NCBI RefSeq assembly: GCF_015767245.1 | Contig: NZ_JADOTV010000006.1 | Location: 62,001-126,000, forward strand | Reading direction: 5' to 3' | Source: Aureivirga sp. CE67 | GTDB taxonomy: Bacteria > Bacteroidota > Bacteroidia > Flavobacteriales > Flavobacteriaceae | Length of the DNA stretch: 64,000 bases | Shown: positions 25,487 through 63,453 of the stretch, piece by piece | Position numbering within the stretch: the stretch's first letter is position 1 | How the letters are laid out: every line of letters begins with the position of its first letter | Program-made: the position numbers and the translations under genes | The notes under the pieces: model-generated | The model's input: the letters and a program-made list of their open reading frames with translations, nothing else | What the model was told of the DNA's origin: nothing | The model's database searches: none

Positions 25487-25621
25487 TATTTTTATTTAAA
25501 AATAGTTTTGTTTTTTTAAAATAATTGAAAAATTAATCTTTTTTTTTAATGAAAATAAATTAGTAAAATACAGATGTATTAGATCATTCATCATACATTT
25601 TAATTTAACTTTTTTAAATAA

Positions 25622-25744
25622 ACATTATCACGTTTGATTTTGTATAAGAGCATAGAGGTTGTCAAGTTCCGCTCTTGAGAGGGGCTAGGGGGTGTGCTTT
25701 AGATGAAACTAAATTCCCTCATAAGATTTTAAACGTGATAATGT
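25622..25744 (+). repeat. MITE-like element, full copy A
   Basis: 123 bp bounded by perfect 14-bp terminal inverted repeats ACATTATCACGTTT / AAACGTGATAATGT. Inside is the core TTCCGCTCTTGAGAGGGGCT followed by AGGGGGTGTG, then AATTCCCTC. The full copy at 63247-63367 has the same layout in the same orientation. No open frame is present, so movement would need a transposase from elsewhere. Confidence 0.85.
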
Positions 25745-25818
25745 CTAATATAAAAAAACTTTTTTTTAAATAAGAAATAAACAAGAATGAAAAAAAAAAA
25801 TATTTAAATTTGAAAAAT

Positions 25819-57641: not shown

Positions 57642-57718
57642 GTTATAAATGAATCAATAAAATTAGAAAAGAAGGTTAACTATGATCTTAATTTATTTTT
57701 AAGATATTCAGATTATTA

Positions 57719-57750
57719 AATTCCCCTCTCGAGAGGGGTTAGGGGTGTGT
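57719..57750 (+). repeat. solo core of the MITE-like repeat (copy C)
   Basis: TTCCCCTCTCGAGAGGGGTT followed by AGGGGTGTG, as in the full copies, but without the terminal inverted repeats. It lies about 155 bp upstream of the LytTR regulator gene. Confidence 0.75.
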
Positions 57751-57817
57751 TATGGATTAAAAAAATCATCTTATTAGATTTAAAACTTTTTAATGAATAT
57801 AAGATTCTAATAAAAAA

Positions 57818-59757: not shown

Positions 59758-59785
59758 TTTCCTCTTGAGGTGGGTTAGGAGTGTG
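59758..59785 (+). repeat. degenerate solo core repeat (copy D)
   Basis: CCTCTTGAGGTGGGTTAGGA followed by GTGTG, a worn form of the CCCCTCTTGAGAGGGG...GGGGTGTG core. It is next to the start codon of the 178-residue protein gene (minus strand). Confidence 0.6.
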
Positions 59786-63243: not shown

Positions 63244-63246
63244 TAA

Positions 63247-63367
63247 ACTTTATCACGTTTGATTTTATGTAAAATTATAAAGATTGTCAGTTCCCCTCTT
63301 GAGAGGGGCTAGGGGTGTGTTTTAGATTAATTAAAATTCCCTCAAAAGAATTTAAACGTGATAATGT
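63247..63367 (+). repeat. MITE-like element, full copy B
   Basis: 121 bp. Ends ACTTTATCACGTTT / AAACGTGATAATGT (one mismatch), core TTCCCCTCTTGAGAGGGGCT then AGGGGTGTG, then AATTCCCTC. It starts 4 bp after the quinone reductase stop, so it may also be its transcript end. Same orientation as copy A. Confidence 0.85.
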
Positions 63368-63453
63368 TTAATTTATAAATTTAAAAAAAAATAGAGTAGA
63401 AGATGTATTACTTATATCTTCTACTCTAAATTTTAGTTGTAACTATTTATTTT

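Follow-up and report, generated by a model that had tools for sequence, protein, structure and literature searches.

RAYTs are thought to copy REPs to new sites, and a TA dinucleotide is duplicated by some IS5 groups. How REP-like families spread without a RAYT is an open question, and the excerpted text of one study does not settle whether particular proteins accompany palindromes that lack a tag (PMC3733652). In the portion available of another study, a DUF559 protein of Caulobacter, VsrA, is described as Vsr-like and as belonging to the PD-(D/E)XK superfamily (PMC12907096), and in Pfam DUF559 is still named a domain of unknown function. Here, we analyzed a window of 64,000 nucleotides from Aureivirga sp. 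CE67 in which two MITEs carry a REP-like core, and we propose that the partner of this core is probably a DUF559 nuclease.

The original prediction described copies A and B as MITE-like elements of one length, with the same ends, core, and orientation and with no gene inside. Ends, core, and orientation are indeed common to both, while the predicted lengths differ by 2 bp (123 bp at 25622-25744 for copy A, 121 bp at 63247-63367 for copy B). Extending each end by one base gives elements of approximately 125 bp that both end in RACATTATCACGTTT and have TA on either side (Table 1). Their terminal repeats match over 14-16 bp, with one mismatch in copy B, and no open reading frame of at least 80 aa was found within either copy, in agreement with the absence of a gene.

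Table 1. Positions of the elements and palindromic cores in the window, counted from its first base
Feature	Positions	Strand	Details
MITE copy A	25621..25745	+	Ends RACATTATCACGTTT / AAACGTGATAATGTY; TA at 25619-25620 and 25746-25747
REP-like core in copy A	25667..25698	+	One substitution, one inserted G
Probable decayed MITE	57697..57795	+	Core 57723-57749 unchanged except for a TCGA loop
Decayed core	59759..59785	+	5 mismatches; no MITE profile match
MITE copy B	63246..63368	+	TA at 63244-63245 and 63369-63370
REP-like core in copy B	63291..63321	+	Exact consensus TTCCCCTCTTGAGAGGGGCTAGGGGTGTGTT

A genome search for the ends and the core had been proposed as a check, and both proved abundant. 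Using a MITE profile built from 17 full copies with the core masked, we searched 1.26 Mb of the 4.81-Mb genome and found 39 matches (E ≤ 0.01), as against none at this threshold in reversed sequence (best E = 2.9). Of the 25 copies in which both ends could be located, 16 had TA on either side (TA frequency 0.118); in AT-rich DNA a 2-bp duplication of TA is weak for any one copy, and no empty-site junction resolves it to the base. The core occurred 164 times genome-wide at up to 3 mismatches (185 times with a shorter pattern), and the same pattern read backwards had no match at up to 3 mismatches. Because forward searches returned 164 cores and 39 MITE matches while the backward and reversed searches returned none, the pattern of copies A and B is not due to chance.

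Another proposed check, for a transposase gene with matching ends, led to an interrupted full-length IS relative on contig C43 (ends ACATTACCACG...CGTAATAATGT), which is the only full-length copy we read, none being read intact. Its two open pieces matched HTH_Tnp_4 (PF13613; 4 × 10−6, 26.7 bits against a cut-off of 27) and DDE_Tnp_4 (PF13359; 4 × 10−13), and we refer to the element as IS5-like and of the DDE type; the match of the transposase to the NCBIfam model IS5_4 was weak (19 bits, cut-off 140). Left ends of the IS were identical over 110 bp at the ends of eight contigs and differed by one base at a ninth, as is expected of a recent multi-copy IS collapsed by assembly. Beyond the first 11 bases the IS and MITE ends show resemblance only, and the inner end sequences differ. 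Since an IS5-like DDE transposase gene with related ends is present in the genome, copies A and B are MITEs: they are short and gene-free, have terminal inverted repeats and TA flanks, and belong to a family with many genomic copies. A mini-element of approximately 76 bp on contig C5 (around 1442-1517 of locus L045) has similar terminal inverted repeats and a different interior, lacks the core, and may represent another type of MITE belonging to that IS group.

The core is a separate REP-like unit, taking REP in the wide sense. The unit common to solo cores is ANTT-CCCCTCTTGAGAGGGGYTAGGGGTGTG-TT, with a one-sided tag, GGGGTGTG. Consistent with the REP-like label first given to it, the core is palindromic, high in copy number, and extragenic: 90 of 98 placeable cores were intergenic relative to mechanically called open reading frames (16 of 114, at locus edges, were set aside). 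Solo cores lay once between divergent genes and 11 times between convergent genes, even though the sample contained 15.6 kb of divergent gaps and only 6.1 kb of convergent ones. Among 44 close arrangements, outward-facing pairs were the most frequent (18), and they did not consistently combine a short-spacer with a long-spacer core (LS 5, SS 5, SL 4, LL 4). A hairpin with a 6-bp stem is predicted. As RNA, its + strand was no more stable than shuffled sequence (z −0.44) and the other strand reached z −2.9; as DNA, the values were modest relative to shuffles (z −1.9 and −2.5). A search of Rfam around copy B gave no match over a family cut-off, and two matches below the cut-off both lay outside the element.

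Two cores in the window had been listed as solo cores lacking the MITE ends. This is true of the decayed core at 59759-59785, while the core at 57723-57749, which has one mismatch (TCGA for TTGA), is probably part of a decayed MITE, because the sequence around it has a weak match to the MITE profile (E = 0.0031; flank identities 0.69 and 0.73). In the 1.26-Mb sample, allowing up to 3 mismatches and leaving the loop and the spacer base unconstrained, we found 30 cores within MITEs and another 30 elsewhere, confirming that the core also occurs alone. The suggestion that full copies are nested, with one element carrying the core of another, is likewise supported. We scored the flanks of 48 solo cores, preselected for a lack of significant MITE flanks, and in aggregate they showed little or no resemblance to those of MITEs (left flanks 16.1 vs 15.9 ± 0.5 in shuffled sequence and 15.7 in the reversed control; right flanks 16.4 vs 15.5 ± 0.4 and 17.0). 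Decay from MITEs is thus true of some solo cores, including at least one of these 48 (C1:631), which bears a MITE remnant, and was rejected for the bulk. The two groups also differ in sequence, with a C:T ratio at core position 17 of 39:12 in MITEs and 22:25 in solo cores (p = 0.003). Within the 39 MITE copies mean divergence was 5.6% for the core and 17.3% for the ends (Wilcoxon p = 3 × 10−6), and a perfect core was kept in 8 of the 16 copies whose ends were at least 20% diverged; this could reflect selection, repair-driven homogenization, or old MITE subfamilies. A single uptake of the core by a MITE ancestor would account for the nested copies.

We next compared the genome with a sister species, the only other species of the genus in the comparison, which has 3 cores (up to 3 mismatches) against 164 here and itself contains a small number of MITE-like copies. 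From these copy numbers a gain of cores in the present genome appears the better reading, the alternative being loss in the sister. Within 792.5 kb of the sister genome, 15 of 122 unique cores could be assigned a position inside or between matching stretches, and the core was missing at 14 of these 15 sites. Thus, the comparison of filled and empty sites suggested with the original prediction gave core-less sites in the sister, though none for copies A and B themselves, the genes flanking copy B having no match there. Four MITE sites (C1:52023, C45:156031, L140, and L141) were longer by 126-131 bp than in the sister. Among solo cores, L003 resembled a simple insert of approximately 40 bp and L018 one of 30 bp, with smaller gaps close by; several other alignments of core sites were messy. 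At the one shared site, L017, the two cores had 3 differences in 27 and the flanks were 92% identical, so the core was conserved no better than its flanks.

Beyond the genus, we found the exact core pattern in 29 genomes of a 392-genome sample of the phylum, with 101 copies in this genome and no more than 14 in any other; in a 296-genome sample of the order, 9 had a core at up to 3 mismatches. Core-bearing genomes named among the matches listed include Mucilaginibacter, Pontibacter, Parabacteroides, Brocadia, and Nitrospirae. There were also 28 IMG/VR stretches with the core (L255-L282); some viral-classed contigs are core-rich, for example IMGVR_UViG_2636415943_000003, with spacings of 116 and 230 bp. 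The MITE-flanked core pattern had no match in the contig collection, from which the window's own or a very near genome may be absent. In a genome of another genus (G219, loci L182 and L188, near 1450-1580), two cores lie centrally within a longer sequence that the loci have in common and whose inverted ends are imperfect (CAATGACG / CGTCATT...ATTG); this may be an unrelated MITE that has acquired the core. Among the matches listed in a mainly open-access literature, with subscription journals mostly outside it, no relevant publication contained the core sequence.

The original prediction also likened the core to REP elements moved by RAYT transposases, and here our results point elsewhere. The only Y1_Tnp gene over the Pfam cut-off in the genome (C46:126756-127127, L061; match at C46:126945) is RAYT-like (NHFH, WQ, YIKNNP), and its 3.2-kb locus contains no core. 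It has instead a GTAGGGA...TCCCTAC insert inside its coding sequence, as described in the accessible part of PMC6006769 for TnpA subclass 2.4, which the gene fits. In other genomes, the core was absent at 30 Y1_Tnp loci (those listed among many matches in 50 genomes, one locus per genome) and was not found at 14 of 17 Y1_Tnp matches in 12 further genomes. Y1_Tnp matches occurred in 26 of 26 core-bearing and 21 of 24 core-less genomes, so that their presence does not separate the two. Small custom profiles detected one RAYT, approximately 3 kb from the core, across 146 foreign core loci with a total of 240 cores. The core has neither a GTAG nor a CGTC tag. A RAYT partner is therefore not supported by the Y1_Tnp loci examined here and elsewhere, and the recurrent neighbor of the core is a DUF559 gene.

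We surveyed open reading frames of at least 100 aa within 1.5 kb of cores at 172 foreign loci fetched for the exact core. The largest family encodes DUF559 proteins of approximately 130 aa and was present at 19 of the 172 loci at a median of 10 bp from the core; the second-largest cluster was present at 8. Neighboring cores and DUF559 genes occur in several bacterial phyla. Cores bordered the gene on either side within 200 bp, or lay at both of its ends, in 11 of the 23 core loci containing DUF559, and in seven of these both tags were aimed at the gene. At least 14 of the 36 core-bearing genomes had a DUF559 match no more than 250 bp from a core. In the present genome, the DUF559 gene at C12:279579-279950 has cores 55 bp upstream, overlapping the stop, and 104 bp downstream, all in one orientation. 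In this region (L125 1686-2121) the core at the stop encodes the last residues of the protein, HTPSPSQEGN, and PSQEG(N)-like tails are present in the DUF559 proteins of L350, L375, and L413. Presence of DUF559 does not discriminate between genomes (32 of 36 core-bearing vs 22 of 24 core-less): four (G025, G049, G307, and G544) have cores and no DUF559 match, and in G219 and G269 the sole match lies within a frame of more than 1,000 aa.

A second DUF559 gene of this genome (C5:56829; L532, G000:C5:56130-57850) is bracketed by pairs of approximately 110 bp of a different palindrome, CCCCTCCTTTTGAAGGAGGGG-TT-GGGGGTGGT, with the tag GGGGTGGT; a search of the 1.26-Mb sample, of which the C5:56829 locus is not part, gave no match to the pattern of this palindrome family. 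We then examined 61 stand-alone DUF559 loci taken by score and not by core proximity (36 of their 60 source genomes having been chosen as core-bearing). A repeat shared between the flanks was detected in 31 (above the 99th percentile of mismatched pairs; 17 above the null maximum) and not in the other 30; the same test on Y1_Tnp loci gave 23 of 40 above the 99th percentile and 6 above the null maximum. Among 21 further loci of the nearest homologues in the order, one being this genome's own gene, a flank repeat was found in 12 and not detected in 9. Four of the 12 have a tagged palindrome, for example a short-stem form bearing the same GGGGTGT tag. This pairing of DUF559 with palindromes is the new part of our findings: among the matches listed in a mostly open-access literature, judged by title and abstract start, none linked DUF559 to a palindromic repeat. 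Adjacency alone cannot tell a nuclease that moves a repeat from one that binds it or lives beside it.

We built a tree of 80 DUF559 proteins by a quick method (131 columns); of its 25 core-labelled rows 18 had been chosen by core, and among the 60 genomes that supplied the remaining rows, 36 had been selected for bearing cores. Core-flanked proteins clustered on this tree, requiring 7 changes against 21.5 with shuffled labels (none of 500 shuffles reached so low a value); 24 of the 25 fell in one group of 34 rows with modest support (86). Counting rows not chosen by core, as read from the tree, a core was present in 6 of 16 inside this group and 1 of 45 outside. In the 296-genome order sample, the three closest homologues outside this genome were in G077, G030, and G246, all among the 8 other core-bearing genomes (up to 3 mismatches); the G077 gene is flanked by a variant palindrome of the core, the G030 homologue has a stop, and that of G246 lies in a 572-aa frame. 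Pfam matches to DUF559 ranged from 1 × 10−28 to 1 × 10−31, and the sequence matched NGO0050 in the PDB (3hrl, 1 × 10−14). Residues invariant over ten sequences include E31, Q51, D60, E71, D73, and H77. For L327, a core-flanked member from another genome, the AlphaFold model (pLDDT 83) matched the folds of 3hrl (E = 5 × 10−7), the catalytic domain of I-Bth0305I (3r3p, E = 7 × 10−4), and, more weakly, Vsr (1cw0, E = 0.11).

Taken together, we favor as the probable explanation two layers, MITEs moved by an IS5-like element and a REP-like core partnered by DUF559. An IS5-like DDE transposase (ends ACATTATCACG) would insert at TA and move MITEs such as A and B in trans, as their anatomy and the sister comparison suggest. 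A MITE ancestor would have taken up the core, which it now carries along, and the core would also spread alone as an insert of 30-40 bp. The DUF559 nuclease of approximately 130 aa, with its Vsr/I-Bth0305I-like fold, would be the core's partner: its adjacency, tree clustering, and fold are consistent with an enzyme that recognizes the palindrome or its hairpin and cuts or nicks it. Repair after such a cut may copy the core unit to new sites, so that the nuclease would move the repeat much as RAYTs act on REPs, by a different chemistry.

Other explanations can be weighed against this one. DUF559 may be a passenger, a mobile nuclease gene that inserts into existing palindromes or is carried between them while another agent moves the repeats. 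The 153 of 172 core loci without DUF559 of the shared cluster would fit, as would a homing-type fold able to use the repeat as a landing site; we still consider this unlikely, if worth keeping in mind, given that different DUF559 genes go with different palindromes and that proteins with the core type are concentrated in one part of the tree, whereas a passenger need not track its repeat. The core may instead be an ordinary REP whose RAYT/TnpA-REP tyrosine transposase is now lost or distant. A palindrome with a one-sided tag, mostly intergenic, commonly in outward pairs, and in high copy speaks for this, as do Y1_Tnp matches in every core-bearing genome examined; these matches are nearly as frequent in core-less genomes, however, and the core-less Y1_Tnp loci, the GTAGGGA repeat in this genome's own RAYT-like gene, and a tag that is neither GTAG nor CGTC make this explanation quite improbable.

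The remaining alternatives concern the cores themselves. Cores may be functional sites, for example sites of protein binding or terminators, that selection maintains and whose spread is only incidental; their conservation beside decaying MITE ends and the excess of solo cores in convergent over divergent gaps speak for this. No T run follows the hairpin in the window's four cores, though, and the Rfam result around copy B, the core of L017 diverging no less than its flanks, and the 14 core-less sites of the sister also count against it; we regard it as very improbable as a full account. It can coexist with the other explanations, and our weights for the alternatives therefore need not sum to one. 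We give the slightest credence to the view that all cores come from MITEs, solo cores being old MITEs whose flanks decayed while selection kept the core. It draws on the lower divergence of the core than of the ends, the perfect cores in strongly diverged copies, the MITE remnants at the window's 57723 core and at C1:631, and right flanks of solo cores that score 2 sd above shuffled sequence, though below the reversed control. Against it stand the 48 solo cores without a clear aggregate MITE signal, the 30- and 40-bp inserts relative to the sister, and cores in many phyla next to a MITE-flanked pattern that had no match in the contig collection.

Extending the two-layer explanation beyond this genome, we consider it an evenly balanced question whether there is a second, RAYT-independent kind of REP, in which DUF559 nucleases of Vsr/homing type, each with a cognate G-tagged palindrome, spread units of approximately 30-130 bp across Bacteroidota and several other phyla, with the ability to hitch-hike inside a DDE-transposase MITE. 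A pairing in which different nucleases go with different repeats offers a partner amenable to purification and testing, and the carriage of one mobile repeat by another would let a REP spread past its own copying route.

Compared with described systems, copies A and B resemble IS5-family MITEs in being short and gene-free, in their terminal inverted repeats and TA flanks, and in the presence of a related autonomous element in the genome; they differ in bearing a central REP-like unit that is also found alone. TIRYT elements, as presented in part in PMC3733652, likewise have repeats flanking the gene of a small DNA-processing enzyme and a recurring G-rich motif (GGGGWSAS), but their partner is a tyrosine transposase, and GGGGTGTG does not fit that motif. 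VsrA of Caulobacter shares the DUF559 domain or fold, whereas the available portion of PMC12907096 describes no link to palindromic repeats, and the homing endonuclease I-Bth0305I shares the fold of the core-flanked DUF559 model. With REP, BIME, and REPIN sequences and their RAYTs (TnpA-REP) the core shares a palindrome of 20-40 bp with a one-sided tag, mostly intergenic, present singly or in inverted pairs, at high copy in this genome, and with a partner gene between copies. The core differs from these in its tag, GGGGTGTG in place of GTAG or CGTC, and in its neighbor, a DUF559 nuclease of PD-(D/E)XK type in place of an HUH tyrosine enzyme.
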